Assembly (NCBI GenBank): GCA_039028155.1
Contig: JBCCIS010000004.1
Coordinates: 1 to 64,000 of the forward strand
DNA length: 64,000 bases
Source: Pseudomonadota bacterium
GTDB lineage: Bacteria; Pseudomonadota; Alphaproteobacteria; SP197
Direction: 5' to 3'
The position numbers and the translations under genes were made by a program. The stretch's first letter is position 1; each line of letters begins with the position of its first letter. A model generated the notes under the pieces. It made no database searches. It had not been told where the DNA came from and worked only from the letters and a program-made list of their open reading frames with translations. Positions 1,588 through 45,892 of the stretch are shown here, piece after piece.

Positions 1588-2271
1588 AGATCCTCCTCAA
1601 GTGACGTCCCATGACAGAGGACGTTGCCCCTTGTTTGGTGCGGCCGTGACGGCCTGGCTGACCTGCCAGCACGAAGACTGATCTTGGCCGTCAACACATC
1701 GGGGGCGAGCGAGTGTCTGGCCATACGATGTCCCGCCAACGGCTCTCGATCACCGCCAGCAAGACTCGAGTGATATTGCAACTCATTCGCATTCTTGACT
1801 AGACTTTTCGTAGCCGATTTGAGCTGGCCGGTCAGGGACGACTTGTCGCTCGTCGACGCGCGAAGAGATCGCGTGGTCGCAATGCGCCAAGAAATCGCCG
1901 TGCCGCAGGTCCACGACCCCCAACGCTGTCCCGGTGACCTTCGGTCTCGTGGGCGCACGCGCGGTGGTCCGCACCAACGCGTTCACGCTTATCTGGTGAA
2001 CACCTCTCGGGCGGCCCTCTAGTCACCGGTTGCGGTTCGACATCGACCAGTCTGGCGATAGCCTTCCCCGGTCCGATGGCTGCACCAATCAACGCCGGAC
2101 TGATTCCACGGTCTTCGTTGCCACCTATTGCCGGGGCGCCACAAGCTTGCGCACATCATCGTTTGATACTTGAGGCGGGGTCACGATTGATCTGGATCAT
2201 GATGCGGCGGAAGTACCGGCGCTACCGTCTTGGATGAACGTGAAGATCGCGATGACAGCATCGAGGACGGC
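1588..2271. other. Intergenic region, divergent promoters
   Basis: About 680 bases separate the aldehyde dehydrogenase from the pseudoazurin gene. Short open frames occur on both strands (for example 1795-2022 plus and 1783-1986 minus), but none has a convincing ribosome site or recognisable family. One Fur-like motif is present near 1776. The stretch could contain a decayed gene, but I cannot identify one. Confidence 0.4.
1776..1797. promoter_or_regulatory. Fur-like iron-box half-palindrome
   Basis: The sequence contains TTGCAA followed by CTCATTCGCATTC. The TTCGCATT core matches the right half of the much better operators at 13895-13917 and 21034-21060. The left arm is imperfect. It could control the divergent aldehyde dehydrogenase, or an unannotated small gene. 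Confidence 0.35.
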
Positions 2272-2742
2272 ATGCGCATCACCCTTACATTGGCTGTTCT
2301 TTTAGCGGTGTCTGTCTTGGCCCCGGCAAGAGCAGACACCGTCGTCGACGTGGTGGTCGAACAGACCACCGATGTCATGGCGCTTTCGGCGCATGAGATG
2401 TTCCGGTTCGAGCCCCAGCTGGTCCGCATCAAGCCGGGCGACAGTGTGACGTTTCGTAACTCGATGGCCGACCACACCGTGCACAGCATCCCTGAGATCT
2501 GGCCGGAGGATGCCGAAGAAGTGCACATCAGCCATCAGCCAGAGGTGCAGGTCACGCTCGATCAAGCGGGTGTCTACGGCATCACCTGTGCACGTCACGG
2601 CCAGTACGGCATGGTCATGTTGATCCTGGTGGGCGAACCCGACCTGGAACCGGCCGAGGCGCGCATTGACGAGACCAGGCTGACGCCAGACGCCAAGAAA
2701 GAGATGCAGTCCCTGTTCGACGCTGCGCGTGCCGCCGACTAA
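2272..2742 (+). CDS. Pseudoazurin-like periplasmic cupredoxin
   Basis: This is a type-1 copper electron carrier. From the ATG at 2272 the protein has 156 residues and begins with a clear Sec signal peptide (hydrophobic residues 3-18, cleavage after about APARA). An upstream TTG at 2230 would add a charged leader in front of the signal and is rejected. Copper ligands fit pseudoazurin: His68 in DHTVHSIP, then Cys106, His109 and Met114 in TCARHGQYGM. The tail after residue 125 is a charged helix extension. The gene sits 88 bases upstream of the di-heme peroxidase pair on the same strand. It is a good candidate for the soluble electron shuttle between the cytochrome chain and the peroxidases or oxidoreductase of this locus, which is an inference from position. 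Confidence 0.88.
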   Translation: MRITLTLAVLLAVSVLAPARADTVVDVVVEQTTDVMALSAHEMFRFEPQLVRIKPGDSVTFRNSMADHTVHSIPEIWPEDAEEVHISHQPEVQVTLDQAGVYGITCARHGQYGMVMLILVGEPDLEPAEARIDETRLTPDAKKEMQSLFDAARAAD

Positions 2743-2830
2743 GACCAATCATTGCTCTGTTTGATCTGCCTCAACGCAGGGCTTGGGGCGTCGACCTAGG
2801 CTTGACTCGTTCCTGTCTCGGGAGACCTGG

Positions 2831-3916
2831 ATGCGCCTGAGCCTGCTCTTGGTCATAGCGACCCTTACTGGCATGTCCGTGGTGCTGGCGACAGCGGCGG
2901 ATGAGGGTTTTGCGCCGCTGCCCGAGGCCCTGGAAGTCGACCAGGCGAAGGCGGAACTTGGCAGCTACCTGTTCTTCGATCCGCGCCTGTCCGGCGATGT
3001 CGGCAAGTCCTGCGCCAGTTGTCACGATCCCGCGCAAGGGTGGGGTGACGGCTTGGCGATGTCCGAGGGTTACACCGGCACGCGTCACTTCCGGAACGCG
3101 CCGTCGCTGTTCAACGTGGCATGGAAGACGGCCTTGATGTGGGACGGCCGGCTGGACGGCGACGACCTGGCGACCGCGACGCGCGACATGATGACCGAGT
3201 CCCATACCATGAACATGGATAGCCGGCTGGCCCAGGAACGGCTGAAGCAAACGCCGGCCTATGTCGCCATGTTCGATGAGGCCTATGGCGACGCTCCCTA
3301 TGGCGGGCGCATCTATGGCGCCATCGGCGAGTTCCTGAAGACCATCCGAACCGAGAACGCGCCGTTCGATCTCTACCTGCGTGGGGATGACGCGTCGCTG
3401 TCCGCCGCCGCACTCAGAGGCATGGATCTTTTTGCTGGCAAGGCCGGCTGTATCGCATGTCATACCGGTCCGCTTCTCTCCGACGGACAATGGCATGTCA
3501 CCGGCGCGCCGGATCATCCGGAGCTGCAGTCTGAGCCGTTGCGTCAGATCACGATGCTGCGGCACTTCGCGATCCTGGGGACGCCGGGCTACATGAACCT
3601 CAGGCGCGACGCCGGCGGTTTTGCGGTGTCGAAGGTGGAAGACGACCGCCACGCCTTCGCAACGCCCTCGCTATGGGATGTCGGCCAGACCGCGCCTTAC
3701 ATGCACGCAGGCGTGTTCGACACACTGGATGCCGTGGTCGACTTCTATGACACGGGCGGCGGTGCCGATCAGCGCGCCGGCCTTGCGCCACTGGGGCTCT
3801 CGGATGCGGAGAAGGCTGACCTGGTCGCCTTTCTGGAAAGCCTGACTGGCGACGCGCCGGCTATAACGGCACCGGAACTACCGCGCTACGACATCATTCC
3901 CGTGGCGCAGGACTAG
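2831..3916 (+). CDS. idrP1/idrP2: Di-heme cytochrome c peroxidase, iodate-reductase associated
   Basis: This 361-residue periplasmic protein belongs to the bacterial cytochrome c peroxidase/MauG family. The ATG at 2831 starts a signal peptide (MRLSLLLVIATLTG, cleavage near residue 22); the longer TTG frame at 2783 is rejected. Two c-type heme sites are visible: CASCH at residues 61-65 and CIACH at 207-211. Conserved peroxidase elements such as MWDGR, RGMDLF and TPSLWDVGQTAPYMH are also present. Together with the next gene it forms the pair of di-heme peroxidases that accompanies IdrA and IdrB. In described iodate reducers they are proposed to remove H2O2 or hypoiodous intermediates. I cannot tell which of the pair is P1 and which P2. 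Confidence 0.88.
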   Translation: MRLSLLLVIATLTGMSVVLATAADEGFAPLPEALEVDQAKAELGSYLFFDPRLSGDVGKSCASCHDPAQGWGDGLAMSEGYTGTRHFRNAPSLFNVAWKTALMWDGRLDGDDLATATRDMMTESHTMNMDSRLAQERLKQTPAYVAMFDEAYGDAPYGGRIYGAIGEFLKTIRTENAPFDLYLRGDDASLSAAALRGMDLFAGKAGCIACHTGPLLSDGQWHVTGAPDHPELQSEPLRQITMLRHFAILGTPGYMNLRRDAGGFAVSKVEDDRHAFATPSLWDVGQTAPYMHAGVFDTLDAVVDFYDTGGGADQRAGLAPLGLSDAEKADLVAFLESLTGDAPAITAPELPRYDIIPVAQD

Positions 3917-3925
3917 GGGGTGGCG

Positions 3926-5035
3926 ATGAAAGTCCTCGCGATCGTCCTGGTTCTCGCGCTGGCGGCGACTGGCCTTGCCGTCGCCGAGAACTATCCGCCA
4001 ATCGAGACGCTGCCGCCGCCGCCGGAACCGGCGGACAATCCGTCGACGCCGGCAAAGGTTGCGCTCGGCGAGAAGCTGTTCTGGGACGGCCGGCTCTCCG
4101 GCAACGGCTTCATGCCCTGCGCCGGCTGCCACATCCCAGAACTTGGATGGGGCGGCGGCACGCCCATCTCGATCGGCTATCCCGGCACGACACACTGGCG
4201 CAACAGCCAGACCGTCATCAATTCAGCCTATTACAACAAGTTCTTCTGGGAGGGCTCGGCGAGCTCTTTGGAGACCCAGGCCAAGGATGCCGCCAGCGGC
4301 GCCGTCGCCGGCAACGGCGACGGGTCGATGATGGAGATGCGCCTGCGTTTCGTGCCGGAATACGTCAGCGCGTTCCGCGACGTCTTCGGTACCGACTGGC
4401 CCCATATTGGGCAGGCCTGGATGGCGGTCGCCGCGTTCTCGCGCACCATCGTGACCGACGCCACGAAAGTGCCCTACGACCGCTATCTGGCCGGCGACGA
4501 AAGCGCGATGAGCGAGAGCGCCCTGCGCGGCATGGACCTCTTTCATGGCAAGGCCGGCTGCATTTCCTGCCACAACGGCGCGCTGGCCTCCGACCAGGGT
4601 TTCTACAACACGGGCGTGCCGACGCCAGCGGAGTTCTCCAGCCACCCGCTTTACCAGATCACCTTGCGCTGGGAGATCTACCAAAAGGGCGTGCCCGAGG
4701 AGGTCTATCACGCCGCCGAGGATGATCTGGGGCTTTACCACCGTACGAAGCGGCCCGAGGACATCGGCAAATTCCGCACACCCTCGCTGCGCGAACTGCT
4801 GTGGACCGGGCCCTACATGCATAACGGCGCGTTTTCCACGCTGGCGGAGGTCGTCGACTTTTATGACGCCGGTGGCGGTGATGGCCAGACGGCGGACTTG
4901 GTGCCGCTGGGTCTGGCGGCCGAGGACAAAGCTGATCTCGTCGTGTTCTTGGAGGCGCTTTCCATGGACGAACCGCTGGTCCTGCCCGAGCCCGACGTGC
5001 CGGAGACCGAAGGTTGGGAGGCGTTCGCACCATGA
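3926..5035 (+). CDS. idrP1/idrP2: Second di-heme cytochrome c peroxidase, iodate-reductase associated
   Basis: This 369-residue member of the same family starts 9 bases after the previous stop; a GTG two codons upstream at 3920 is an alternative start. The signal peptide is MKVLAIVLVLALAATGLAVA. Heme sites are CAGCH (residues 65-69) and CISCH (212-216), and the carboxyl part carries FRTPSLRELLWTGPYMHNG. It is similar to its upstream neighbour over the whole length, so the pair probably arose by duplication. Its stop codon overlaps the start of the Rieske gene (ATGA), which implies translational coupling with the oxidoreductase subunits. Function beyond peroxide or oxidised-iodine handling is inferred from the known idr loci. 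Confidence 0.88.
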   Translation: MKVLAIVLVLALAATGLAVAENYPPIETLPPPPEPADNPSTPAKVALGEKLFWDGRLSGNGFMPCAGCHIPELGWGGGTPISIGYPGTTHWRNSQTVINSAYYNKFFWEGSASSLETQAKDAASGAVAGNGDGSMMEMRLRFVPEYVSAFRDVFGTDWPHIGQAWMAVAAFSRTIVTDATKVPYDRYLAGDESAMSESALRGMDLFHGKAGCISCHNGALASDQGFYNTGVPTPAEFSSHPLYQITLRWEIYQKGVPEEVYHAAEDDLGLYHRTKRPEDIGKFRTPSLRELLWTGPYMHNGAFSTLAEVVDFYDAGGGDGQTADLVPLGLAAEDKADLVVFLEALSMDEPLVLPEPDVPETEGWEAFAP

Positions 5036-5550
5036 CATCGCAAGGACCCTGCGTGAGCCGCCGCGAGGCATTGATCCTGGGTGGCAGCGCGGTCGCCGTG
5101 CTGGCCTTCCTTGGTCACGGCGCCAGCGCCCAGGAACTCGTCAAGTCCGACTACCCGCGCAAGGTCATCGCGCGGCTGTCCGATCTGGTGCCCGGCGAGG
5201 CGCTGAGCTTCACCTATCCGACCGACGACAACGAGAACCTGCTGGTCAGGTTGGGCGAGGAAGCCGGCGGCGGCATCGGCGCGGACCGCAACATCGTCGC
5301 GTTCAACACGATCTGTCCGCACATGGGCGGCTACATGGACGCCACCACCTACAAACCCGCGCACGCCGCGCTCGGCCCCTGCCCGCTGCACCTGACGACG
5401 TTCGATCTCTCGCGCCACGGCATGGTGATCTCCGGCCACGCCACCGCGAGCCTGCCGCAAATCGTGCTGGAACTGGACGGCGACAAGATTGTCGCGACCG
5501 GCGTCATGGGCTTGTTCTACGGCTACAGCCGCAACCCGACGGAGGCCTGA
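5032..5550 (+). CDS. idrB: Rieske iron-sulfur small subunit, twin-arginine exported
   Basis: This 172-residue protein is the small subunit of an AioBA/IdrAB-type enzyme. The ATG at 5032 overlaps the preceding stop; the frame opens earlier at 5014. A twin-arginine signal, SRREALILGG, is followed by a hydrophobic stretch to about residue 33. The Rieske [2Fe-2S] ligands are Cys95 and His97 in CPHMGGY and Cys117 and His120 in CPLHLTTF. The first motif is CxH-MGG as in the arsenite oxidase small subunit family. It should be exported folded and pass electrons between the periplasmic carriers and the large subunit, which has no signal of its own. Three bases separate its stop from the large-subunit start. 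Alternative: AioB of a true arsenite oxidase. Confidence 0.9.
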   Translation: MTSQGPCVSRREALILGGSAVAVLAFLGHGASAQELVKSDYPRKVIARLSDLVPGEALSFTYPTDDNENLLVRLGEEAGGGIGADRNIVAFNTICPHMGGYMDATTYKPAHAALGPCPLHLTTFDLSRHGMVISGHATASLPQIVLELDGDKIVATGVMGLFYGYSRNPTEA

Positions 5551-5553
5551 GCC

Positions 5554-8208
5554 ATGCGCCAGCTTGCCGACCATGTGCCCCTGCCGCCGGCCCATGCCGA
5601 GGTCCTGACGACGGCATGCAGCTACTGCATTGTCGCCTGCGGCTACAAGATCTACCGCTGGCCGGTCGGCCAGGAGGGCGGGCCGGAAGCCGCCAACAAC
5701 GTCTTCAATGTCGACTTCCCGACGTTCGGCGTGCCGTGGGTGTCGCCCAGCCAGCACAAGATCGGGTTTCATCAGGGCCGGCCCCATCACTTCGTCGTGC
5801 TGCCCGATCAAGACGCCGAGGTCGTCAACCCCGGCGGCAACCATTCGATCCGCGGCGGCACCCTGGCGCAGAAGATCTTCCATCCCGACAGCCCGACCGG
5901 CGACCGGCTGCAGCAGCCGACGATCCGGGTCAACAGCGAGCTCCAGCCGGTCAGCTGGGATCTGGCAATCGACGTGATGGCCCAGGTCTCCCGGCATGTC
6001 CTGCGCCAGCACGGCGAACACGCCTGGGGCATGAAGACCTATTCCTACGAGTTCTTCGAGAACACCTACGCGATCCGCAAGCTGGTCGACCGCGCGGTCG
6101 CCACGCCCGTCTATGCGCCCCACGACAAGCCGCAGAACGCCGAAGACGCCGCCGGCCTGGACGATGCCGGCGTCAATTCCTTCTCGGCCAGCTTCGAGGA
6201 TTGGGGCGCCTGCGACGTCGCCTTCATGTCCGGCGTCGACCCATACGAAACCAAGACGGTGCTGTTCACCGAATGGATGATGTGGGGCGAAAACCCGGAC
6301 AAGAGAATGATCTTCGTCACCCCACACCGCACCATGGGCGTCGAATGGGGTCTCCAGAACGGTGGCCTGTGGCTGCCGATTATTCCCGGCACCGACACGG
6401 TGCTGCACCTGGCGCTGGCCAAGATCGTCATCGACAACGGCTGGCAGGATCAGGACTTCCTCGACAACTGGGTGAACTCCCGCTTCGAGATCGAAAGCGG
6501 TTACGGCCGCGGCACGCGCAACACCCGCTGGCAATGGCGCACCACCTGGGGGCGCTGGCAATCGGACTGGGAGGACTATCAGGACTTCATCGCCGGCGAA
6601 CCAGCGGCCGAGCTCAATGCCGCCGCCGAGATCACCGGGATCGAGGCCGACCTGATCGTCAGGACCGCCGAGCTGCTCGCCAAGCCGCGCGACGACGGAT
6701 CGCGGCCCAAGACCAGCTTCATGCTGGAGAAAGGCAACTACTGGTCCAACAACTATATGAACACCGCGTCCCTGGCCGCGCTCGGCCTGATCTGCGGCGC
6801 CGGCAACCGCAAGGGTCGCGTCATCAGCCGCGGCGGCGGCCACCAGCGCGGCGGCATGTCGCCGGGCGGCGGCAAGGGCTGGCTGAGCCCCGAAAAACAC
6901 CCGGGCCGGCGCAAGAAGGCGCTGAACGTCGACCGCTGGGTGATGGACGGCCACGTGCGCTTCATGTGGGTCATCGGCAGCACCTGGTTTCCGGCCATGT
7001 TGGCGAGCCATCATCTGGCCAGCCGTGTCGAGGAGCTGACCGCCGGCAATCCGCACCAGCCCGAAAACCTGGATCGCGACCACCTGATCGAGACATACAA
7101 GGCGCGTGCCGAAAGCGGCGGCATGGTGCTGGTCAACAGCGACATTTATCCCGTCGACCCGCTCAACACGGATTACGCCGATATCGTTCTGCCGGCCTCA
7201 TGCTGGGGCGAGGATGACACCACCCGCTGCAACGCCGAGCGGCGGTTGAGGCTTTATTCCAAGTTCAACGATGCGCCGGGCGAGGCCAAGCCCGACTGGT
7301 GGGCGATCGGTCAGTTCGCGCAGAAGATGGGTTTCGCCGGCTTCGATTGGCCCGACAGCAACGCTATCTTCGAGGAGGCGTCGCGGTTCTCGCGCGGCGG
7401 CGTCTTGAGCTATCACGTGCTCGCCGAAGCCGCCCGTGCCGAGGGTCGGCGCGGCCACGACAAGCTGCGCGATTACGGCACCACCGGTATCCAGACGCCC
7501 GTGCGCCTGCGCGACGGCGAGCTCGTCGGCACCAAGCGTCTGCACGATCCCGATAACGACTGGGGCGAAGTAGAGGGCGCGACCTTTGACCAGAAGTGGC
7601 TCTATGGCTTCGGCACCCACACCGGCAAGGCCAACCTGTTGAAGACGCCGTGGAACAACAACGGCTGGACCGACTTTTACGAGGCCATCAAGCCGCGTCC
7701 CGAGAAGGGCGAGATCTGGGTCACCAATGGCCGGGTCAACGAGCAGTGGCAGTCCGGCTTCGACGACGTGCGCAAACCCCTGCTGCGAGACCGCTGGCCC
7801 CACCCGCCGATCTTCATCCACCCCGACGACGCGGCACCGGAGGGCATCGAGTCCGGCGATTTCGTCGACGTCGTCAACGATGCGGTCTACGTGCAGGAGG
7901 GTTCACCGATCGGGGTGGAGCCCGACGATCTCAGTTTCACCAGTCTTCTGGAGCGCGGCCATATCCGGGTGACCGAGGCGCGGTTCCAGGCCGTCGCCAT
8001 CGTGTCGGACGAGATGCGCCCGGGCGTCGCCAAGTCGACGTTTGCGAGCCCCCAGGCGATGGCGAACGCCGTCTGTCACGCCGTCCCGGATCCGGTCAGC
8101 GGCAACTACCGCTACAAGCTCGGGCGCGGCGCGCTCAAGCGGATTGGCCCGAGCCCCTACAAGTCCGGGTTCGCGCAGATGTCCCTCAAACCCCGCCCGA
8201 TCGTCTGA
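5554..8208 (+). CDS. idrA: Molybdopterin oxidoreductase, probable iodate reductase catalytic subunit
   Basis: This 884-residue protein of the DMSO-reductase superfamily, AioA/IdrA branch, should reduce iodate in the periplasm with a bis-MGD molybdenum centre. Cys22, Cys25 and Cys29 in CSYCIVACGYKIY form the C-x2-C-x3-C [3Fe-4S] motif typical of AioA-like proteins. Further family landmarks are WGLQNGGLWLPIIPGTDTVLHLAL, EKGNYWSNNYMNTAS, RGGGHQRGG and DIVLPASCWGEDD. Arsenite oxidase is the main alternative. The paired di-heme peroxidases immediately upstream are characteristic of iodate reductase loci in Pseudomonas sp. SCT and Denitromonas. No arsenic genes are nearby, and the length is above the usual 820-845 residues of AioA. 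It lacks an export signal and probably rides with the Rieske partner. Confidence 0.85.
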   Translation: MRQLADHVPLPPAHAEVLTTACSYCIVACGYKIYRWPVGQEGGPEAANNVFNVDFPTFGVPWVSPSQHKIGFHQGRPHHFVVLPDQDAEVVNPGGNHSIRGGTLAQKIFHPDSPTGDRLQQPTIRVNSELQPVSWDLAIDVMAQVSRHVLRQHGEHAWGMKTYSYEFFENTYAIRKLVDRAVATPVYAPHDKPQNAEDAAGLDDAGVNSFSASFEDWGACDVAFMSGVDPYETKTVLFTEWMMWGENPDKRMIFVTPHRTMGVEWGLQNGGLWLPIIPGTDTVLHLALAKIVIDNGWQDQDFLDNWVNSRFEIESGYGRGTRNTRWQWRTTWGRWQSDWEDYQDFIAGEPAAELNAAAEITGIEADLIVRTAELLAKPRDDGSRPKTSFMLEKGNYWSNNYMNTASLAALGLICGAGNRKGRVISRGGGHQRGGMSPGGGKGWLSPEKHPGRRKKALNVDRWVMDGHVRFMWVIGSTWFPAMLASHHLASRVEELTAGNPHQPENLDRDHLIETYKARAESGGMVLVNSDIYPVDPLNTDYADIVLPASCWGEDDTTRCNAERRLRLYSKFNDAPGEAKPDWWAIGQFAQKMGFAGFDWPDSNAIFEEASRFSRGGVLSYHVLAEAARAEGRRGHDKLRDYGTTGIQTPVRLRDGELVGTKRLHDPDNDWGEVEGATFDQKWLYGFGTHTGKANLLKTPWNNNGWTDFYEAIKPRPEKGEIWVTNGRVNEQWQSGFDDVRKPLLRDRWPHPPIFIHPDDAAPEGIESGDFVDVVNDAVYVQEGSPIGVEPDDLSFTSLLERGHIRVTEARFQAVAIVSDEMRPGVAKSTFASPQAMANAVCHAVPDPVSGNYRYKLGRGALKRIGPSPYKSGFAQMSLKPRPIV

Positions 8209-22657: not shown

Positions 22658-22687
22658 TTGACTTGTCATGCAACTAATTATTAGTAT
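22658..22687 (+). promoter_or_regulatory. sit operon promoter with palindromic operator
   Basis: A -35 element TTGACT (22658-22663) and a -10-like TAGTAT (22682-22687) are separated by 18 bases. Between and overlapping them lies CTAATTATTAG (22674-22684), a perfect palindrome around a central T. Repression by a Fur-family (Mur/Fur) or MntR-type protein would fit. It is 40 bases before the sitA start. Confidence 0.5.
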
Positions 22688-22727
22688 CATTCTAAGCAAG
22701 AACATTCTTTCCCTTAGAAGGACACCC

Positions 22728-23630
22728 GTGCGTTCAAGAATTGCGATGTTTGTGGCGGCAGCGCTGGTTGCGACAATGTTGCCGTTCGGCGTCTCCGCCG
22801 CCGACAAGATGAAGGTCGTCACCACGTTCACAGTCATCGCGGACATGGCGTCCAATGTCGCGGGCGACACCGCCCTGGTGGTCTCCATCACAAAGCCGGG
22901 CGCCGAAATCCATGGCTATCAGCCGACCCCGCAAGATCTGGTTCGCGCCTCCGACGCCGATCTTATCCTTTGGAACGGCATGAACCTGGAACTGTGGTTC
23001 GAGCAGTTCATCGCCAATTTGGGCAACCCGCCATCGGTGACGCTGACAGAGGGAATCGATCCCATCCCGATCACGTCGGGATCGTATGAAGGCCAGCCCA
23101 ACCCCCACGCATGGATGGGTCTGGACAACGCGCTGGTCTATATCGACAACATTACCGCCGCGTTCGCCGAGCACGATCCGAAGAACGCGGCGGTCTATGC
23201 CGAGAACGCCCGTCTCTACAAGGAACGCCTTCGCGCCACGATTGAACCCTTGCGCCAGGCCATCGCATCGATCCCCGAAGACAAGCGTTGGCTGGTCACC
23301 TGTGAGGGCGCCTTCAGCTACCTCGCCCGCGACTTCGGGATGAAGGAACTCTACCTTTGGCCGATGAACACCGACGAGGTCGGCACACCCCAGCAGGTGC
23401 GCGCCGTCATCGATGGCGTGGTCGCAAACCAGATACCTGTCGTATTCTGCGAGAGCACGGTGAACACCGCGCCGGCGCAACAGGTCGCGCGTGAGACAGG
23501 CGCCAGCTACGGCGGCGTGCTCTACGTCGATTCGTTGAGCGACGCCGACGGTAGCGTGCCGACGTATCTGGATTTATTGGAAGTCACGTCAAGGACGATC
23601 GCCGATGGGCTTCAGGCCACAACAGACTGA
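22728..23630 (+). CDS. sitA: Manganese/iron ABC transporter substrate-binding protein
   Basis: This 300-residue cluster A-I binding protein has the signal peptide VRSRIAMFVAAALVATMLPFGVSA. The GTG at 22728 follows AGAAGGAC; the upstream ATG at 22668 would translate the promoter and is rejected. Metal ligands fit the Mn/Fe group: His62 in EIHGYQPT, His127 in NPHAWM, Glu193 in CEGAF and Asp268 in YVDSLS. There is no His-rich loop of the kind found in ZnuA. It delivers Mn(II) or Fe(II) to the SitC/SitD permeases. It is the first gene of a four-gene operon. Confidence 0.9.
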   Translation: MRSRIAMFVAAALVATMLPFGVSAADKMKVVTTFTVIADMASNVAGDTALVVSITKPGAEIHGYQPTPQDLVRASDADLILWNGMNLELWFEQFIANLGNPPSVTLTEGIDPIPITSGSYEGQPNPHAWMGLDNALVYIDNITAAFAEHDPKNAAVYAENARLYKERLRATIEPLRQAIASIPEDKRWLVTCEGAFSYLARDFGMKELYLWPMNTDEVGTPQQVRAVIDGVVANQIPVVFCESTVNTAPAQQVARETGASYGGVLYVDSLSDADGSVPTYLDLLEVTSRTIADGLQATTD

Positions 23631-23726
23631 CGGCGGTATGAGTGCGAGCGGCACGCGCCAGGCGGTTCGAGGCGCATCATCGTGGTATCCAAACTGGTCC
23701 AATCGCTAGGGCCCAAGGAGGAGCGG

Positions 23727-24626
23727 ATGCACAAAGCCATTGAGGCAGTGGACGATATCGAGGCCTTCGGCCCGTTCGGCGATGGCATCGCAGCGAGTGG
23801 CGTAACGGTGACGTACCGCAATGGGCACACGGCACTTTGGGATGCCAGCTTCGAGGCGCCCCGCAGCACGATCACGGCGCTGGTCGGCGTGAATGGTGCC
23901 GGCAAGTCGACGCTCTTTAAGGCCATCATGGGTTTGGTGCCCGCGGTCTGCGGTGAAATCCGCGTCCTCAACCTGAGCGTCGCCGAAGCCCTGAAGCGGA
24001 ACCTGGTGGCCTACGTTCCCCAGTCCGAAGAAGTGGACTGGGATTTTCCGATCCTTGTCGAAGACCTAGTGATGATGGGTCGCTACGGACACATGGGATT
24101 TTTGCGTCGGCCACGATCGATTGACCACGAAGCCGTCGAACTGGCGCTGCAGCGCGTCGGCATGCGGGATTATCGGGCATCACAGATCGGCGAGTTGTCC
24201 GGCGGACAGCGCAAGCGCGTTTTTCTGGCCCGCGCGCTCGCCCAAGACGGTCAGGTGATCTTGCTTGATGAGCCCTTCAACGGCGTGGACGCCAAGACGG
24301 AAGAGCAGATAACCGCGCTCTTGCGTGAACTCAGGGACGAAGGTCGGGTCATCCTTGTGTCGACCCACAATCTTGGGACAGTGCCGGAGTTCTGCGATCG
24401 TGCCGTCCTGGTCAAGGGTACGGTGCTCGGATACGGGCCCACGGAAACGACGTTTACCCGCGAAAATCTGGAACGCGCGTTCGGCGGCGTTCTCCGTCAC
24501 TTCACGATCACGGCGCAGACTCTTCACACCGATGGCGATCATCGCAAAATCACGATCATCAGCGATGACGAAAGGCCCTTCGTTCAGTATGGCGACAAGG
24601 TTCAAACGAACGAGGACTCGTCATGA
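23727..24626 (+). CDS. sitB: Manganese/iron ABC transporter ATP-binding protein
   Basis: This 299-residue ATPase begins at the ATG after AAGGAGGAGCGG. Walker A is GVNGAGKST (54-62), the signature LSGGQ is at 157-161, Walker B is ILLDEP (178-183) and the switch His is in STHNLG. The segment VPQSEEVDWDFPILVEDLVMMGRYGHMG is a hallmark of SitB/MntB-like proteins rather than ZnuC. The C-terminal 40 residues after about residue 255 (TITAQTLHTDGDHRKITIISDDERPF) form a polar extension. The stop overlaps the start of the first permease. Confidence 0.92.
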   Translation: MHKAIEAVDDIEAFGPFGDGIAASGVTVTYRNGHTALWDASFEAPRSTITALVGVNGAGKSTLFKAIMGLVPAVCGEIRVLNLSVAEALKRNLVAYVPQSEEVDWDFPILVEDLVMMGRYGHMGFLRRPRSIDHEAVELALQRVGMRDYRASQIGELSGGQRKRVFLARALAQDGQVILLDEPFNGVDAKTEEQITALLRELRDEGRVILVSTHNLGTVPEFCDRAVLVKGTVLGYGPTETTFTRENLERAFGGVLRHFTITAQTLHTDGDHRKITIISDDERPFVQYGDKVQTNEDSS

Positions 24627-25525
24627 TCGAGACGCTTCTCGAGCCGTTTACCTACGGTTACATGGCGAATGCTATGTGGGTTTCCTCTCTGGTAGGGGCC
24701 TTGTGTGCCTTCCTCTCGGCTTACTTGATGCTGAAGGGGTGGTCGCTGATCGGGGACGCGCTCTCCCACTCGGTCGTTCCCGGCGTGGTCGGCGCCTACC
24801 TCATCGGCCTGCCGTTTTCGCTGGGCGCCTTTTTGTCCGGCGGACTTGCGGCAGCCGCCATGCTGTTCCTGTCGGAACGCTCCGGCCTCAAGGTTGATGT
24901 GCTTATCGGCATGACGTTCATCTCTTTCTTCGGCCTTGGCCTTTTCCTTATCTCCGTCAATCCCGTCGGTGTCGATGTGCAGACGATTACCATGGGGAAC
25001 GTCCTGGCCATCACGCCAGAGGACACCTTGCAGTTGGCCATCATCGGGTTCGTCTCCCTCGCGATCCTGCTGCTGAAATGGAAAGACCTGATGGTGACGT
25101 TCTTCGACGAGAACCACGCGAAGACCATCGGGTTGCGGCCCCGTTTGCTGAAGGCGATGTTCTTCGTTCTGTTGTCGGCGTCCGTGGTGGCGGCGATGCA
25201 AACGGTCGGCGCGTTCCTCGTCATTGCCTTGGTCGTGACACCTGGCGCCACGGCCTATCTGCTCTGCGACGGCTTTCCCCGGTTGATCGCAGTTTCCGTC
25301 GTCATTGGCGCCGTCACGAGCTTCGTCGGCGCCTACGTGAGCTTTTTTCTGGACGGCGCCACTGGTGGCATCATCGTGACCCTGCAGACGCTTGTCTTCT
25401 TGACCGTGTTCATCTTCGCCTCGAAGTACGGTCTCTTCGCGGCTCGTCTCAAGGCCAAGCGGGCCCGGCAGCTGGCGGTAGACCGCAACGCCAAACGGGC
25501 CAGCGGCGGTAAAGAGTTCGCGTGA
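24623..25525 (+). CDS. sitC: Manganese/iron ABC transporter permease
   Basis: This 300-residue ABC-3 family inner-membrane permease has eight or nine predicted hydrophobic helices. Typical motifs are GWSLIGDALSHSVVPGVVGAYLIGLPFSLGAF near the N-terminus and GAFLVIALVVTPGATAYLLC near residue 195. The ATG overlaps the ATPase stop (ATGA). It pairs with the next permease to form the heterodimeric channel. The C-terminus is cytoplasmic and basic (RLKAKRARQLAVDRNAKR). Confidence 0.92.
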   Translation: MIETLLEPFTYGYMANAMWVSSLVGALCAFLSAYLMLKGWSLIGDALSHSVVPGVVGAYLIGLPFSLGAFLSGGLAAAAMLFLSERSGLKVDVLIGMTFISFFGLGLFLISVNPVGVDVQTITMGNVLAITPEDTLQLAIIGFVSLAILLLKWKDLMVTFFDENHAKTIGLRPRLLKAMFFVLLSASVVAAMQTVGAFLVIALVVTPGATAYLLCDGFPRLIAVSVVIGAVTSFVGAYVSFFLDGATGGIIVTLQTLVFLTVFIFASKYGLFAARLKAKRARQLAVDRNAKRASGGKEFA

Positions 25526-26412
25526 TGGATATCGACACGCTGCTGCTGCCGCTTCAGTTCGCCTTCATGCAGAAGGCGTTCGTGATAGCGATGATCGTGT
25601 CGGTGCCGACGGCGCTTCTGTCGTGCTTTCTGGTCGTCAAGGGATGGGCCCTGATGGGCGATGCCGTCAGCCATGCCGTTCTTCCGGGCATCGTCGTGAC
25701 GTACATACTGGGCCTGCCACTGATCGTCGGCGCTTTCGCGGCCGGCATGATCTGCGCAATCGCCACGGGCTACCTGTCAGCCAACAGCCGCATCAAACAG
25801 GACACCATTATGGGCGTCGTGTTCTCGGGCATGTTTGGCCTGGGCATCGTGCTCTACGTCTCCGTCGAGACGAACGTTCATCTTGATCACATCCTGTTCG
25901 GCAACATTCTGGGTGTCCAACTGGACGATCTTTGGATGACGGGTGTGATCGCGATGATCGTCAGTGCGGCTGTTGCGCTCAAATGGAAGGACCTGCTTCT
26001 GTTTAGCTTCGACCAGGCGCAGGCACGGGCCTCCGGCCTTCGGGTGCACTGGCTGCATTACGCCTTTCTTTCGGCCCTGTCACTGACCGTGGTGGCGACG
26101 CTGTCGGCTGTCGGGCTGATCCTTGCGATCGGACTTCTGATCGCACCCGGCGCCATCGCCTTCCTTCTCGTGCGCAAGTTCCAGACCATGCTCTGGGTCT
26201 CCGTCGTCGTCTGCATGGTATCGATGCTTGCCGGTACCTATGCCAGTTTCTTTCTCGACAGTGCGCCGGCGCCAACGATCGTGCTGGCTCTGACGGCAGG
26301 GTTTGTCGCTGCGTTCATTCGCAGACAGTTCCTGGCCTACAGGACCTCACCACGGCGTGTCGACGCGCCCGGCGCACCCCGGACTGATCGGCCGACATCG
26401 ACGACCCTCTAG
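25525..26412 (+). CDS. sitD: Manganese/iron ABC transporter second permease
   Basis: This 295-residue ABC-3 permease is homologous to the preceding gene, with GWALMGDAVSHAVLPGIVVTYILGLPLIVGAF and GLILAIGLLIAPGAIAFLLV at matching positions. The ATG overlaps the sitC stop by one base, with a GTG one codon earlier. It is the last gene of the operon; the C-terminal tail is polar and proline-rich (RTSPRRVDAPGAPRTDRPTS). The downstream region is gene-poor and holds an insertion-sequence relic, so the operon probably ends here. Confidence 0.92.
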   Translation: MDIDTLLLPLQFAFMQKAFVIAMIVSVPTALLSCFLVVKGWALMGDAVSHAVLPGIVVTYILGLPLIVGAFAAGMICAIATGYLSANSRIKQDTIMGVVFSGMFGLGIVLYVSVETNVHLDHILFGNILGVQLDDLWMTGVIAMIVSAAVALKWKDLLLFSFDQAQARASGLRVHWLHYAFLSALSLTVVATLSAVGLILAIGLLIAPGAIAFLLVRKFQTMLWVSVVVCMVSMLAGTYASFFLDSAPAPTIVLALTAGFVAAFIRRQFLAYRTSPRRVDAPGAPRTDRPTSTTL

Positions 26413-32976: not shown

Positions 32977-33170
32977 GTCGTCTCGCGGCCTCCGACGTTC
33001 CGTCCCCGGCGGCGCCGGGAAGACGCGCCCTACGGTTTTGCTTGCAAACAAGGCGTCTGTTGCCGGTCATCCACCGAAAGGTGGAGCCGACAGGCCACCA
33101 AACCTCAGCAAACAGTTTCTTTTTGCTTGCAACAGTGCATGAATATACACGCATAACCCCTGGCTTTGAA

Positions 33171-33905
33171 ATGACCACCAGAAGAAAGCCCTTTGTCGTC
33201 GGCAGCTACTACGCAAGTCCGGCGGAAAAGCAGCAGTTCCTGCGCAAGATCTTCGACAGGACGGCGTCCCACTATGAGGGGGTGGCGCGTTGGGGCTGGT
33301 TCTGCTCGGGCGAAATCTACCGGCTTGGCGCACTTCGACGCGCCGGCGTGAGACCGGATATGAGGGTGATTGACGTCGCCTCGGGAACCGGATCGGTGGC
33401 GCGCGCGTTCATGAAGATCCTGAACAGCCCAGATCAGATTGTCTGCGTCGAACCGTCGGCGGGCATGATTGCCGAATCGCGAAAGACCGTGCCAGCCACC
33501 CATCATCAGTCAACCGCAGAATCGCTGCCCGTCCCCGATGAGGCGTTCGACTTCCTGTCCATGGGTTTCGCACTGCGTCACGTCGATGACCTCGAAGAGA
33601 CGTTCCGTGAGTTCCGCCGTGTTCTGAAAGACGGCGGCAAGGTTCTCATCATGGACGTCACGACACCGGACAGCAGGATCGGTCGGGTTTTGTTTAAGGC
33701 CTACTTCAAGCATTTGCTGCCGCTGTTCACGCTGATCATCAGTCGTGACCGCGAAGCCTACCGTCTTATGAAGTACTACTGGGACACGATGGATCAGATG
33801 GTCGATCGCGAGGAGATCGTCGAAATCCTGCGTGAGAGCGGTTTTCGGACGGCCGACCACAAGGTCCTGCTGGGTTGCTTCTCAGAATACGTGGCAGAGC
33901 GCTGA
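33171..33905 (+). CDS. SAM-dependent class I methyltransferase (UbiE-like)
   Basis: This 244-residue methyltransferase begins at ATG 33171 (MTTRRKPFVVGSYYASPAEKQQFLRKIFDRTASHYE). The SAM site is RVIDVASGTGSVARAF at about residue 67, followed by IVCVEPSAGMIAESRK and the UbiE-type LPVPDEAFDFLSMGFALRHVDDLEETFREFRRVLKDGGKVLIMDVT. It probably methylates an aromatic or quinone-like ring. In an aryl-polyene setting it would act on the aryl head group, which often carries a methyl. It is the first gene of the plus-strand cluster and is followed by the glycosyltransferase after 105 bases. Confidence 0.85.
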   Translation: MTTRRKPFVVGSYYASPAEKQQFLRKIFDRTASHYEGVARWGWFCSGEIYRLGALRRAGVRPDMRVIDVASGTGSVARAFMKILNSPDQIVCVEPSAGMIAESRKTVPATHHQSTAESLPVPDEAFDFLSMGFALRHVDDLEETFREFRRVLKDGGKVLIMDVTTPDSRIGRVLFKAYFKHLLPLFTLIISRDREAYRLMKYYWDTMDQMVDREEIVEILRESGFRTADHKVLLGCFSEYVAER

Positions 33906-34010
33906 AATCATGAACAGGCCGCCCGGAAAAGGCGTGGCAAACGCGATAACCACGTCGACGACATTTCACCTCAATGCAGCGCACACTCTGTCACTCTTTT
34001 TGGATGAGCC

Positions 34011-34787
34011 ATGGTGCACACGGTCGCGGTGATACCGGCCCATAACGAGGCCCCGACGATTCGCGACATCGTCGTCGCGACGCGTCGCCTGGTCGACGCC
34101 GTGATTGTGATCGATGATGGATCAGGCGACGGCACCTCCGACGCGCTGTCGGATCTCGACACGCACATCATTCGCCACGACCGGAACGAAGGCAAAGGCC
34201 GGTGTCTGGTGGAGGGTCTGGACGCTGCTTTCGCCAAGGGGGCGGATCAGGTCGTCACGCTCGACGCAGATGGCCAGCACGACCCCATGGACATTCCGGC
34301 GTTTCTGGCGCGCGCCAGAGCCTTTCCGGACGCGATTGTCCTCGGCGACCGGTCTGATGATTTCAGGAACATGCCGGCCACGCGCGTCCTGGGTAACGGC
34401 CTGGGAAGCTTCTTTGTCGGTTGGGCTTGCGCACGAAAGCTCCGGGACGCCCAGTGCGGCATGCGGCTTTATCCGCGCCAGGCGTGGCGCGCCGTCGACG
34501 TTCCGCCACGGGACGTCAGCGGTTTCCTCTTCGAAACCGCCGTGTTGCTGCATGCCGCGGAGGCGGATATCGCCTTTGCCACGCTCTCTATTGCAGCGCG
34601 ATACGACGGCTATGTGCACAGGCCAAGTCACTTTCGTCCGGTCGGCGACCTCCTGAAGATCGCCGGGATGGTGACCCGGTTCCTTTTCAGCCGCCGCCTG
34701 CAGCCACGCGGACTTTTTGTAGCACTTGGACTAACGATGGATTCGCGTACGCAAAACCAGGAGAAAGTCGAGACATGTCAAAACTGA
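34011..34787 (+). CDS. Family 2 glycosyltransferase
   Basis: This 258-residue GT-A fold enzyme has HTVAVIPAHNEAPTIRDIV at the N-terminus, the nucleotide-binding VIVIDDGSGDGT, and the metal-binding VVTLDADGQHDPMDI. It resembles dolichyl-phosphate-mannose-synthase-like bacterial enzymes. There is no C-terminal membrane domain. Aryl-polyene clusters often contain a GT2 domain, sometimes fused to an acyltransferase; here the two functions are encoded by separate genes. The last 13 bases overlap the lipoprotein gene. Confidence 0.85.
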   Translation: MVHTVAVIPAHNEAPTIRDIVVATRRLVDAVIVIDDGSGDGTSDALSDLDTHIIRHDRNEGKGRCLVEGLDAAFAKGADQVVTLDADGQHDPMDIPAFLARARAFPDAIVLGDRSDDFRNMPATRVLGNGLGSFFVGWACARKLRDAQCGMRLYPRQAWRAVDVPPRDVSGFLFETAVLLHAAEADIAFATLSIAARYDGYVHRPSHFRPVGDLLKIAGMVTRFLFSRRLQPRGLFVALGLTMDSRTQNQEKVETCQN

Positions 34788-35209
34788 AAATTGCTCTTCC
34801 CTTAGCCCTCCTCGTCGTCGTCACCCTGGCAGGTTGCCGCGGGACCGTGCCCATTCAGAATATCAACGACGCGTCATACGGCACCGCCGGCTACTCAACG
34901 ACAACACCACTCACATTGGATCAGTACGAACAGGCGATCATTCGTGCCGGCAGCACGCGCAATTGGGTGTTCCAGCGTGTCGCTCCTGGTCATCTCGTTG
35001 GCACCAATGTCGTGCGCGGCAAACACACGGCGGTCGTCGACGTATTCTTCAACACCGAAACGTTTTCGATCACGTACAAGGATTCGAACAATCTGAAGTA
35101 CGATGCGGCAAAACAGGAGATCCACCCGAACTACAATTCCTGGGTCGATCTGCTGAAGGTCGACATTCAGACCGAGCTTCAAAAAGCGGACCCGGCAGAG
35201 CTTGGCTGA
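34775..35209 (+). CDS. Small lipoprotein of the polyene cluster
   Basis: This 144-residue protein has a lipoprotein signal peptide (MSKLKIALPLALLVVVTLAGC, Cys at residue 21) and a ribosome site AGGAG inside the end of the glycosyltransferase gene. The mature part, with LTLDQYEQAIIRAGSTRNWVFQRVAPGHLVGTNVVRGKHTAVVDVFFNTETFSITYKDSNNLKYD, looks like a compact beta-rich domain. Similar small lipoproteins occur in aryl-polyene gene clusters. It may help to place the product in the outer membrane; this role is inferred. Confidence 0.78.
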   Translation: MSKLKIALPLALLVVVTLAGCRGTVPIQNINDASYGTAGYSTTTPLTLDQYEQAIIRAGSTRNWVFQRVAPGHLVGTNVVRGKHTAVVDVFFNTETFSITYKDSNNLKYDAAKQEIHPNYNSWVDLLKVDIQTELQKADPAELG

Positions 35210-35522
35210 CGACGCCATTGCGACCTGGCGTCGACAAGTAGCAGGCGGCGTTCCCCTGGACGCCGCCTGCGTCGATGGCCATTTCCCGGGAGAACCCGTC
35301 GTACCGGGAGCGGTCCTGCTGGGTTACGCTGCCGGACTGCTAAGCGAACACGGTTACGATCTGGCCAGGGTAAGGCGCCTGAAGTTTCTTCAAACCCTGG
35401 CGCCCGGCTGCTCATTTACCGTGCAAATCAAGACCGGAGCATCTGTCACCGAGATCGTCTGGTGCGCCGGCGAGACGGTGATCGCGCAGGCCAGTGTCGA
35501 CCTATGCGCCCATGACAACTAG
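35202..35522 (+). CDS. 3-hydroxyacyl-ACP dehydratase-like hotdog protein (ApeI type)
   Basis: This 106-residue hotdog protein carries DGHFPGEPVVPGAVLLGYAA, the FabZ/FabA helix with the catalytic His in GHFPG. It would dehydrate 3-hydroxyacyl-ACP during polyene elongation. The only upstream start in frame is TTG at 35202, which overlaps the lipoprotein stop by 8 bases. The protein is shorter than FabZ and belongs to the small dehydratase type found in aryl-polyene clusters. A second hotdog protein is encoded at 41158. Confidence 0.8.
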   Translation: MADDAIATWRRQVAGGVPLDAACVDGHFPGEPVVPGAVLLGYAAGLLSEHGYDLARVRRLKFLQTLAPGCSFTVQIKTGASVTEIVWCAGETVIAQASVDLCAHDN

Positions 35523-36426
35523 TGGCGTATCGCAATGGTCGAAGTCCCGGGAGACAGGCTCACCGCGGCAACTGTGGCTCATGCGGTGGCTGGCCCTGCA
35601 CGCACATGCGGTCGTCATGGAGCCGTTGCTGTGGTCGATCGCGCTGGTCTATGCGTCGCAATCACAACGCCTGACAACACGTGCATCGGCCATCTATCTC
35701 GAACGCATTCTCGGCCGACGGCCCGGCTTATGGGACCTTCATCGCCACACGAACATGTTCGCCCACGTCTTCGTCGACCGTGTCAAGCTGCTGTCCGGTG
35801 GACTGGATCGGTTCAATCTCCAGGTACGTGGCCAAGACCTGATCAGGCGGCAGCATGCCAGTGGGTGTGGCGGGGTTCTTGTTGGCGCGCATTTCGGCAG
35901 CTTCGAGGCGTTGCGCGCGTTTGACCGGATGTTGCCGGGACTGCAGGTCCACTATCTGATGTACCCGGAACACGCGACAATCTCGACCGGGTTGCTGAAC
36001 CAGCTCAACCCATCCGTCGCCGAACGGATCATCCCGCTGCAAGACGGCCAAACGGCGATGCTTCAAGTGTTCGAGGCGCTGAATAACGGAGACTTCGTCG
36101 CGTTTCTGGGTGACCGCCTCGTCGATACTTCGATCCGCGGTCAGATCCAGGTACCATTTCTCGGCGACACCATAAAAGTGCCGACCTCGCCTTACATTGC
36201 CGCGATGGCCGCACGCGTTCCGCTGTTCTTCTGCACGGCGCCGCGGCTGGGAAAGGACCACTATGCGATCGAGTTTTCGATGCTCTACGACGGCAGTCCA
36301 GTCGATCGGGCCGAGCGCGACGACAGGATTGCCGCTCTGGCTGAGAGCTACACGGCGAAGTTGGACGATATGTGCCGCCGCTATCCTTATAACTGGTTCA
36401 ACTTCTTCGATATCTGGAGCGAGTGA
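35512..36426 (+). CDS. LpxL-like lysophospholipid acyltransferase
   Basis: This 304-residue membrane-associated acyltransferase has the HX4E catalytic motif at His127-Glu132 (GAHFGSFEALRAF). Further LpxL-family features are FVAFLGDRLVD and the C-terminal CRRYPYNWFNFFDIWSE, whose YP-WFNFFDFW pattern is highly conserved. It probably transfers the finished polyene acyl chain from ACP to a lipid or glycolipid acceptor. The ATG at 35512 overlaps the dehydratase gene by 11 bases. The far end overlaps the putative signal peptide of the next gene. Confidence 0.85.
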   Translation: MTTSGVSQWSKSRETGSPRQLWLMRWLALHAHAVVMEPLLWSIALVYASQSQRLTTRASAIYLERILGRRPGLWDLHRHTNMFAHVFVDRVKLLSGGLDRFNLQVRGQDLIRRQHASGCGGVLVGAHFGSFEALRAFDRMLPGLQVHYLMYPEHATISTGLLNQLNPSVAERIIPLQDGQTAMLQVFEALNNGDFVAFLGDRLVDTSIRGQIQVPFLGDTIKVPTSPYIAAMAARVPLFFCTAPRLGKDHYAIEFSMLYDGSPVDRAERDDRIAALAESYTAKLDDMCRRYPYNWFNFFDIWSE

Positions 36427-36955
36427 ATTCCACTGCGCCGCACCGCCGGTCACAGACATCGAAGCCGCGCTCACGGCACGCCCCGCCGCATTCGATAGCA
36501 CGGTCAGCTATCGTGAAGAGATCTATCATCCGGCCATAACAACACCAGTGGTCGCACACGGTTGGTTCGAATATTCCGACGACGGCGCATTGATACGCCA
36601 CCAAACGGAGCCGCAGGCTGAAACCGTGACCATCGGAGCAGATCACATTCACCGCCGGCGCGAAGCAAGCGGCTTCACCACCACCGTCTCCATTCCGTCC
36701 CAGTTGGCGCCGTTTTTTGCACTGCTGCGGGCGTTGGTTTCCGGCAACCATGAAGTTCTTGTCTCGCTGTTGGACGGTCACGCCGCCGACATGGACAACA
36801 GTGCTACCGGTTGGATCCTGACGCTTAGAACCGACGGTACGACGGATGCCGCCATCACGATGATTCTGAGCGGTTGCGATGATGTGCTGCAGGCCGTCGA
36901 AGTCCACCTGCCCGACGATACCCGTCGGCGCTATGTGTTTGAAGAACCGGCATGA
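36329..36955 (+). CDS. LolA-like outer-membrane lipoprotein carrier (start uncertain)
   Basis: The frame encodes a protein with a LolA-like pattern: AALTARPAAFDSTVSYREEIYHPAITTPVVAHGWFEYSDDGALIRHQTEP then TVTIGADHIHRRR. This matches the LolA-related carriers of aryl-polyene clusters. No ATG, GTG or TTG exists between the previous stop (36426) and the conserved region. The nearest in-frame start is TTG at 36329. From there the frame gives a good signal peptide (basic RATRR, hydrophobic TICAAAILITG, then SISGAS), although this requires 98 bases of out-of-frame overlap with the acyltransferase. The alternatives are an unusual start or a sequencing error. The stop overlaps the exporter start. Confidence 0.65.
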   Translation: MPLWLRATRRSWTICAAAILITGSTSSISGASEFHCAAPPVTDIEAALTARPAAFDSTVSYREEIYHPAITTPVVAHGWFEYSDDGALIRHQTEPQAETVTIGADHIHRRREASGFTTTVSIPSQLAPFFALLRALVSGNHEVLVSLLDGHAADMDNSATGWILTLRTDGTTDAAITMILSGCDDVLQAVEVHLPDDTRRRYVFEEPA

Positions 36956-39180: not shown

Positions 39181-40376
39181 CAGGAGCTTCTCTTCGGGAA
39201 AGCGCTGCACCGATCAAGATCACGGGCCACTCGCTGGTGACCTGCCTTGGTCACGGGCGCGCCGTCCACCTTGATGCGATGATCGAGGGACGCTCAGGTC
39301 TCGCGCCCAGTGACGTACCAGACCTGCCCTTCGGCTGCTTCATCGGCCGCGTGCCTGATATCGAAGGTCTGGACTTTCCAAAGGATGTCGCGGATTTCGA
39401 CAACCGCGCCAATCGGCTGGCTTTGGCCGCGCTCAACGCGGATGGTTTCAAAGATCGGATCGAGAAGGCGATCGCGCATTGGGGTGTGGCCCGTTTGGGC
39501 GTCATCATCGGCACCTCAACGTCGGGCATTGAAAAGCTGGAAACGGTGTACCGCGACCGCGAGGCCAACGCGCCTCTGCCTGAAAGTTACGTGATGCGCC
39601 ACCACGACAACCATCAGGCGGTCGCCGCGTTCCTACAAGAACACTTCGCCCTGACCGGACCGAGCTACTCGATCTCAACGGCCTGTTCCTCCTCTGCCAA
39701 GGCGTTGGTCGATGCCGTTCAACTGATCGAGGCCGGCCTGTGCGACGCGGTGCTGACCGGCGGCGTCGACAGCCTCTGCCTGACCACGCTGAACGGTTTC
39801 GAAGCCATGCAGTTGGTATCCCGCCAACCTTGTCGCCCGTGCGACGCCAACCGGGACGGCCTATCGATCGGTGAAGGTGCGGCCTTGATGCTTGTCGAGC
39901 GGTCGACATCACCGGGCGTGCGCCTGAGCGGGTACGGCGAGAGTTCCGACGGGGTCAGCATGTCGACACCGCCGGAGGATGGGTCAGGTGCCCATGCCGC
40001 GATCGAGGCGGCGCTTGAAAGGGCCCGACTGACACCGGATCAGGTCGGCTTTATCAATCTGCATGGCACGGCGACGCCAACAAACGACACAGCGGAGTGC
40101 CGGGCGGTTGCCAACGTGTTTGGCACCTCGACCCCTGCATCGTCGTTCAAGGGAGCGGTCGGCCATACCCTGGGCGCCGCCGGCGCGGTCGAGGCTGTCA
40201 TGTGTCTCATCGCCCAGGAGGCCGGCCTTGTGCCGGGTAATGTCGGGCTGGAGGACCTTGATCCGACGATAGCGTGCGACATCGTGCCGCAGAGCCGCCA
40301 TGGCGACCTCACGAACGTCATCACCAATGCTTTCGGATTTGGCGGCAGCAACTGCGTGCTTGTCCTGAGCGCATGA
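39177..40376 (+). CDS. 3-oxoacyl-ACP synthase (KAS II-like)
   Basis: This 399-residue condensing enzyme has the catalytic triad Cys170 (STACSSSAKAL), His296 (NLHGTATPTNDTAE) and His330 (GAVGHTLGAAGAVEA). It elongates ACP-bound chains with malonyl-ACP. In aryl-polyene systems such a ketosynthase works with the chain-length-factor-like partner encoded immediately downstream, whose start overlaps its stop (ATGA). It is the only complete ketosynthase in the window, whereas described aryl-polyene loci usually carry more than one. Confidence 0.92.
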   Translation: MTGASLRESAAPIKITGHSLVTCLGHGRAVHLDAMIEGRSGLAPSDVPDLPFGCFIGRVPDIEGLDFPKDVADFDNRANRLALAALNADGFKDRIEKAIAHWGVARLGVIIGTSTSGIEKLETVYRDREANAPLPESYVMRHHDNHQAVAAFLQEHFALTGPSYSISTACSSSAKALVDAVQLIEAGLCDAVLTGGVDSLCLTTLNGFEAMQLVSRQPCRPCDANRDGLSIGEGAALMLVERSTSPGVRLSGYGESSDGVSMSTPPEDGSGAHAAIEAALERARLTPDQVGFINLHGTATPTNDTAECRAVANVFGTSTPASSFKGAVGHTLGAAGAVEAVMCLIAQEAGLVPGNVGLEDLDPTIACDIVPQSRHGDLTNVITNAFGFGGSNCVLVLSA

Positions 40377-44507: not shown

Positions 44508-44509
44508 CG

Positions 44510-45868: not shown

Positions 45869-45892
45869 CGCAGTTCGTTCGATTGAGTGACA

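Follow-up and report, generated by a model that had tools for sequence, protein, structure and literature searches.

The first 64,000 nucleotides of contig JBCCIS010000004.1, from an alphaproteobacterium of the SP197 lineage (assembly GCA_039028155.1), carry an iodate reductase (idr) locus near their left end; this whole stretch is referred to here as the window. The locus is preceded by a gene for a pseudoazurin-like cupredoxin, and five genes follow one another on the plus strand: pseudoazurin, two di-haem peroxidases (P-P), the Rieske subunit IdrB (B) and the molybdopterin catalytic subunit IdrA (A). They are probably transcribed as one unit (Table 1). Membership in the Idr family is ordinary, and the new point is the association with a cupredoxin.

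The five-gene set had been proposed in a preliminary description of this DNA, and it is real, with Pfam or NCBIfam domains and cofactor motifs found in all five products. Intact multi-domain open reading frames (ORFs) of this kind rule out chance as the source of the locus. In the Pfam and NCBIfam scans both peroxidases match CCP_MauG (E=5e-41 for the first and E=1.5e-37 for the second), each with two CXXCH motifs. The ORF of the first spans 2783-3916 and opens at TTG 2783, with ATG 2831 the likely start, and from this start the previously reported gap of 88 bases to the pseudoazurin gene holds. The second probably begins at GTG 3920 or ATG 3926. The IdrB frame (5014-5550) has its likely start at ATG 5029, overlapping the stop of the second peroxidase, and its product carries an SRREAL twin-arginine translocation (Tat) motif and the Rieske ligands C-x-H...C-x2-H. 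NCBIfam names the Idr subunits arsenite oxidase; the IdrA reading frame scores 398.8 bits against TIGR02693 (cut-off 359) and IdrB scores at the cut-off of TIGR02694. The [3Fe-4S] motif of IdrA reads CSYCIVAC. Inspection of the proteins suggests a Tat signal on IdrB, Sec-type signals on the peroxidases and none on IdrA. Scans for sigma-70 promoters and terminators returned nothing above shuffled expectation, and the intergenic region ahead of the pseudoazurin gene holds no sigma-70 consensus match.

Table 1. Features of the idr locus in the window, and the HEAT-repeat genes of other idr loci (locus handle before the coordinates)
Feature	Position	Strand	Remarks
Intergenic region, presumed promoter region	1588..2271	.	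between divergent aldehyde dehydrogenase gene and pseudoazurin
Pseudoazurin-like cupredoxin	2272..2742	+	156 aa, Sec-type signal, type-1 Cu ligands, member of idr-associated clade
First di-haem peroxidase-like protein (IdrP)	2831..3916	+	haem motifs CASCH and CIACH, signal peptide
Second di-haem peroxidase-like protein (IdrP)	3920..5035	+	haem motifs CAGCH and CISCH
IdrB, Rieske [2Fe-2S] small subunit	5029..5550	+	twin-arginine signal
IdrA, molybdopterin catalytic subunit	5554..8208	+	[3Fe-4S] motif C-x2-C-x3-C; Asp at AioA Glu203 position
HEAT-repeat gene	L085:10700-12874		same place in L083, L086-L089, L096, L100-L111, L114, L115
HEAT-repeat gene, Vibrio locus	L046:3004-5037		upstream and divergent

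Judged from its sequence, the large subunit is IdrA and the locus an iodate reductase. Its identity to roseobacter IdrA is 74-78%. By sample, identity is 71-77% to the IdrA of eight public loci from roseobacters and other Proteobacteria and up to 78% to that of sampled Rhodobacteraceae, falls to 48-51% for a second group of idr loci (clade II), and is 26-30% to AioA, the large subunit of arsenite oxidase. A maximum-likelihood tree built from 46 proteins by a quick search, without the IdrA of strains SCT and IR-12, places the window protein within an 11-row clade (Shimodaira-Hasegawa-like approximate likelihood-ratio support 100) together with Roseovarius azorensis, with Azonexus and Thiothrix adjacent and the eight AioA-type proteins separate. 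Owing to the quick search and the long branches among the AioA rows, the root is placed with less confidence than the IdrA clade. R. azorensis reduces iodate, and its IdrA, given as 99.4 kDa, is the main protein in an iodate-reducing gel band (PMC11445184). For the IdrA encoded at locus L039 the computed mass is 99.5 kDa, and this protein is taken to be this active-band protein on the agreement in mass, with the accession left unmatched. One complete P-P-B-A locus, L084 (genome G139), encodes an IdrA on a long branch outside both main clades.

The active site agrees with this placement. The position equivalent to AioA Glu203 holds Glu in 8/8 AioA-type proteins and in none of the 38 IdrA: clade I, to which the window belongs, has Asp there, clade II has Ser and a single protein has Ala. 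The arsenite-binding residues His195, Arg419 and His423 are retained in all IdrA, and the window protein keeps three of the four ligands. The residue at the Glu203 position is a simple discriminator between IdrA and AioA; annotation pipelines name both alike. The host genome has no ACR3 arsenite exporter (ArsB and ArsC were not searched), and no ars genes were seen among the window ORFs read. The tree, the identities, the active-site residue, the paired peroxidases and the absent ACR3 thus agree with the preliminary call of an iodate reductase rather than an arsenite oxidase, and the tree placement that it had proposed as a check puts the protein outside the AioA clade and beside the IdrA of R. 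azorensis. From these genes the host would be expected to reduce iodate.

The same description suspected that the P-P-B-A order may differ from that of known loci. This did not stand. All 40 idr loci with complete context have it, including those of Azonexus, Thiothrix and Vibrio plasmids; it is the order given for Pseudomonas SCT, Denitromonas IR-12 and Candidatus Methylomirabilis iodofontis (PMC10989891), and two peroxidases always stand ahead of idrAB (PMC8801600). An unusual gene order is therefore ruled out, P-P-B-A being canonical, and the designation 'idrABP1P2' is a list of genes and not their physical order.

Comparison with described systems places the window close to R. azorensis (PMC11445184), which shares its gene order and IdrA clade, with identities of 74% for IdrA, 58% for the first peroxidase, 75% for the second and 70% for IdrB. 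The two differ upstream: there R. azorensis encodes a class I cytochrome c together with a paired sensor kinase and response regulator, and the window has the pseudoazurin and no such kinase in 64 kb. The idrABP1P2 sets of Pseudomonas sp. SCT, Denitromonas sp. IR-12 and Aromatoleum/Azoarcus have the same four core genes, with the peroxidases before B and A and with IdrB alone bearing a Tat signal, but the additional genes of their islands vary (a c551-like cytochrome, a two-component system, moaA), and pseudoazurin is unmentioned (PMC8692401, PMC8801600, PMC10149662, PMC10989891). The nearest proxy compared for the SCT/IR-12 type is Azonexus hydrophilus, with an IdrA 64% identical to that of the window. 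On the megaplasmid of Vibrio sp. THAF190c the order is again P-P-B-A, and a pseudoazurin gene belonging to the same subfamily lies about 70 bases away from idrA. This locus differs in that its IdrA is only 48% identical (clade II), that the pseudoazurin gene is downstream and on the opposite strand, and that a HEAT-repeat gene lies upstream. The AioAB enzymes of Pseudorhizobium NT-26 and Sinorhizobium M14, whose partner is a small cytochrome c or azurin, have the fold, the Rieske and [3Fe-4S] centres and an adjacent gene for a small redox partner in common with the window. Unlike it, they have no peroxidases, carry aioSR beside aioBA, retain Glu203 and are 28-29% identical.

The cupredoxin itself is pseudoazurin-like, although it does not fit the classical family. 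It scores 39 bits against Pfam Copper-bind (cut-off 21), its best matches in the PDB are pseudoazurins, and the type-1 copper ligands H68, C106, H109 and M114 are all present with pseudoazurin spacing. Against the NCBIfam pseudoazurin model TIGR02375 it reaches 74.3 bits, below the equivalog cut-off of 109.85. It belongs to a divergent subfamily, pseudoazurin-like in its working yet not to be filed as a classical equivalog. Classical pseudoazurins, which are donors to copper nitrite reductase, N2O reductase and cytochrome c peroxidase, share the type-1 copper site, and the window protein matches their solved structures; what sets it apart is a Q-x-x-D ... M-F-R-F type signature and its score below the NCBIfam cut-off. 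Leave-one-out scores of 141-193 bits within the subfamily, against 71-89 bits for classical pseudoazurins, indicate that the two are distinct. The subfamily is made up of idr-linked copies and of four unlinked copies in other idr-positive genomes. Within it, the window protein falls in a six-member clade (support 99/95 and 98/96 in the trees), all six members of which come from idr-positive genomes. The host genome has one pseudoazurin-level match, at 74.5 bits, and its other cupredoxin scores 31.

Members of this subfamily recur beside idr. Four other idr loci have one at a distance of 0-2.3 kb, and its position varies: downstream on the opposite strand in Vibrio sp. THAF190c, upstream and divergent in genomes G162 and G406, and 2.2 kb downstream in genome G875. 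With the window left out, the chance that at least three of seven copies would be linked to idr within a 12 kb stretch is about 5e-7. Frequencies were compared in 397 genomes of one sampled group (f23), for which the family name Rhodobacteraceae was inferred; 21 of them are idr-positive and 376 idr-negative. The whole subfamily (matches above 150 bits) occurs in 3/21 idr-positive and 4/376 idr-negative genomes (p=0.004), with the idr-negative copies placed in a sister clade; the six-member clade occurs in 3/21 and 0/376, respectively (p=1.3e-4). Among 289 sampled genomes of the host's class, subfamily matches were confined to three idr-positive genomes and one in which idr was not found, and the copy from the latter falls in a sister clade. 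A search of 72,556 plasmids returned the idr-linked Vibrio gene as the top match to the window pseudoazurin. Open-access papers that mention iodate contain nothing linking it with a pseudoazurin, their sole cupredoxin match concerning haloarchaeal denitrification; subscription papers, including the original SCT paper, lay outside this search.

Several observations weigh against a functional tie between this pseudoazurin and Idr. Most idr loci have no adjacent pseudoazurin, which indicates that it is not essential to Idr, and in 4/8 idr-positive genomes with a subfamily member the gene lies elsewhere in the genome. In idr-negative genomes, the sister cupredoxin clade adjoins a large membrane protein of multihaem type. 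The six-member clade, moreover, was put together from idr-positive genomes, and the profile was trained on its members, so that the enrichment is partly ascertained; the lack of any six-clade member in idr-negative genomes, searched with the same profile, is the cleaner result.

The sister clade merits a description of its own. At loci L182-L185 of idr-negative Rhodobacteraceae, its pseudoazurin gene directly follows a gene for a protein of 1111-1169 residues (L183:1994-5329) with a membrane N-terminus and weak matches to multihaem cytochromes. The two could possibly form a separate copper-fed redox system.

In the relatives of the window, the place upstream of the first peroxidase gene is variably occupied. 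In R. azorensis and a Roseovarius metagenome-assembled genome (loci L038 and L039) it is taken by a gene for a class I cytochrome c, the other close relatives have no small carrier in that slot, and no direct homologue of the window pseudoazurin was found in the close roseobacter loci. Published Idr models take electrons from quinol through the bc1 complex and a small periplasmic carrier to the IdrB Rieske centre, the IdrA [3Fe-4S] cluster and molybdenum, after which hypoiodous acid disproportionates and the peroxidases remove H2O2 (PMC8692401, PMC10149662). By analogy with these models, quinol oxidation by cytochrome bc1 would reduce the periplasmic pseudoazurin (Cu2+/Cu+), which would pass electrons to the Rieske cluster of IdrB and on through the [3Fe-4S] cluster of IdrA to its molybdenum site. 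There IO3- would be reduced to hypoiodous acid, with disproportionation to iodide and iodate following, and the two di-haem peroxidases would clear the H2O2 formed en route, probably fed by the same small carrier. The pseudoazurin would thereby fill the slot held by a small c-type cytochrome upstream of the same peroxidase gene in R. azorensis and the Roseovarius genome. Altogether, the locus is probably a horizontally acquired dissimilatory Idr operon in which a cupredoxin, instead of a cytochrome c, serves as the periplasmic carrier to IdrAB, the peroxidases or both. Sequence establishes which genes are present and in what order, their cofactor motifs, the clade memberships and the association between the cupredoxin clade and idr; the direction and route of electron flow and the partner of the carrier are inferred from the genes.

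What the carrier feeds is the point on which the chief alternative turns. The pseudoazurin may serve the two di-haem peroxidases and not IdrAB, which would then use a c-type cytochrome encoded elsewhere. Its gene lies directly upstream of the first peroxidase gene, IdrP1/P2, should they act as peroxidases, would require a small carrier to supply their electrons, and a precedent is reported in the pseudoazurin of Paracoccus pantotrophus, a donor to a di-haem cytochrome c peroxidase (Pauleta 2004, as cited in PMC6274584). As pseudoazurin is a known donor to such enzymes, the peroxidases encoded next to it may also receive its electrons. However, proximity to the peroxidases is inconsistent across loci, the gene in Vibrio, G162, G406 and G875 lying either on the opposite strand or at the idrA end of the locus, and in published models the small cytochrome is the donor to IdrAB. 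Sequence separates neither option and a single carrier may serve both, and exclusive service to the peroxidases is rather unlikely. The preliminary description had suggested that the electron donor is encoded in the same unit. The recurrence of the pseudoazurin at idr loci and the confinement of its clade to idr-positive genomes among those sampled support and strengthen the view that it belongs to the system; IdrAB is its putative acceptor, and the peroxidases are possible recipients too.

It is improbable that the pseudoazurin is a chance neighbour of idr with a role in some other pathway, for instance denitrification. NirK and NosZ are common partners of pseudoazurins, and the absence of the gene from most idr loci would fit such a reading. 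Recurrence at four other idr loci in varied orientation and restriction of the clade to idr-positive genomes in the samples searched speak against it, as does the host, where this is the only pseudoazurin-level match and there is no NirK. Neither the host nor the seven other genomes with the subfamily has a copper nitrite reductase NirK above the family cut-off (NosZ was not searched), and a role as NirK partner in the host was rejected on that ground. Least probable by far is an arsenite oxidase (AioAB) with the pseudoazurin as electron acceptor, for which the NCBIfam names and the three retained arsenite ligands could be cited but which conflicts with the position outside the AioA clade, the low identity to AioA, the Asp in place of Glu203, the paired peroxidases, the missing ACR3 gene and the iodate reduction of the close relative R. 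azorensis.

The operon looks to have been acquired by horizontal transfer, since idr is absent from the sampled relatives of the host: no IdrA-level match was found in 14 genomes from other genera of the host family or in one genome of the host's own genus. Five of these 15 relatives were searched for the pseudoazurin, and none had it. Composition was considered as a sign of foreign DNA and set aside, the GC content of the idr region (65.1%, against 62.2% for the window) being not decisive. The contig begins 2.27 kb ahead of the pseudoazurin gene, and the flanking gene there is the unrelated aldehyde dehydrogenase.

Regulation probably differs from that of related loci. In 17 loci (L039:3332-5533 and 16 others), among them those of 10/10 alphaproteobacterial clade I relatives with upstream sequence, a hybrid sensor kinase whose N-terminal domain is conserved lies upstream of idr; it is a candidate iodate sensor. 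This kinase is absent within the 64-kb window, and a copy elsewhere in the host genome was rejected, as matches there begin only at residue 186 and none spans most of the N-terminal sensor part, so that only the kinase half is covered. Another gene separates the two IdrA clades: a HEAT-repeat protein is encoded directly downstream of idrA in nearly all loci of clade II (about 50% identical to the window) and in no clade I locus, and may act as an accessory or assembly factor specific to clade II.

Two further regions of the window were noted, largely by eye. Positions 22668-26412 encode a periplasmic metal-binding protein, an ATP-binding cassette ATPase and two membrane subunits, resembling a manganese/zinc importer of the SitABCD/ZnuABC type. 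Positions 33000-45900 hold ORFs for an acyltransferase, an exporter of the resistance-nodulation-division type, a ketoacyl synthase, a ketoreductase, a tryptophan-halogenase-like flavoprotein and an AMP-ligase, a run that resembles an aryl polyene-type biosynthesis cluster.

Up to now the donor to IdrAB has only been assumed, a c551-like cytochrome taking this place in published models, and the gene for that cytochrome is missing from half of ten compared iodate-reduction islands (PMC8801600). An idr-linked cupredoxin whose clade comes from idr-positive genomes only is a concrete and testable candidate for this donor, and it suggests that copper proteins as well as haem proteins can feed Idr in iodate reducers. 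A stronger version, plausible but falling somewhat short of an even chance, is that a distinct pseudoazurin clade has co-evolved with Idr as a dedicated donor in some of the Alphaproteobacteria (related copies occur at the idr loci of Vibrio and another proteobacterium), that haem and copper carriers are interchangeable, and that iodate reduction in seawater is tied to copper supply. The locus also widens the range of Idr to a bacterial family with 0/14 carriers among its other sampled genomes. Marine iodate reduction adds iodide to surface waters and hence contributes to ozone loss; if copper carriers do feed Idr, copper as well as iron status would influence this process.

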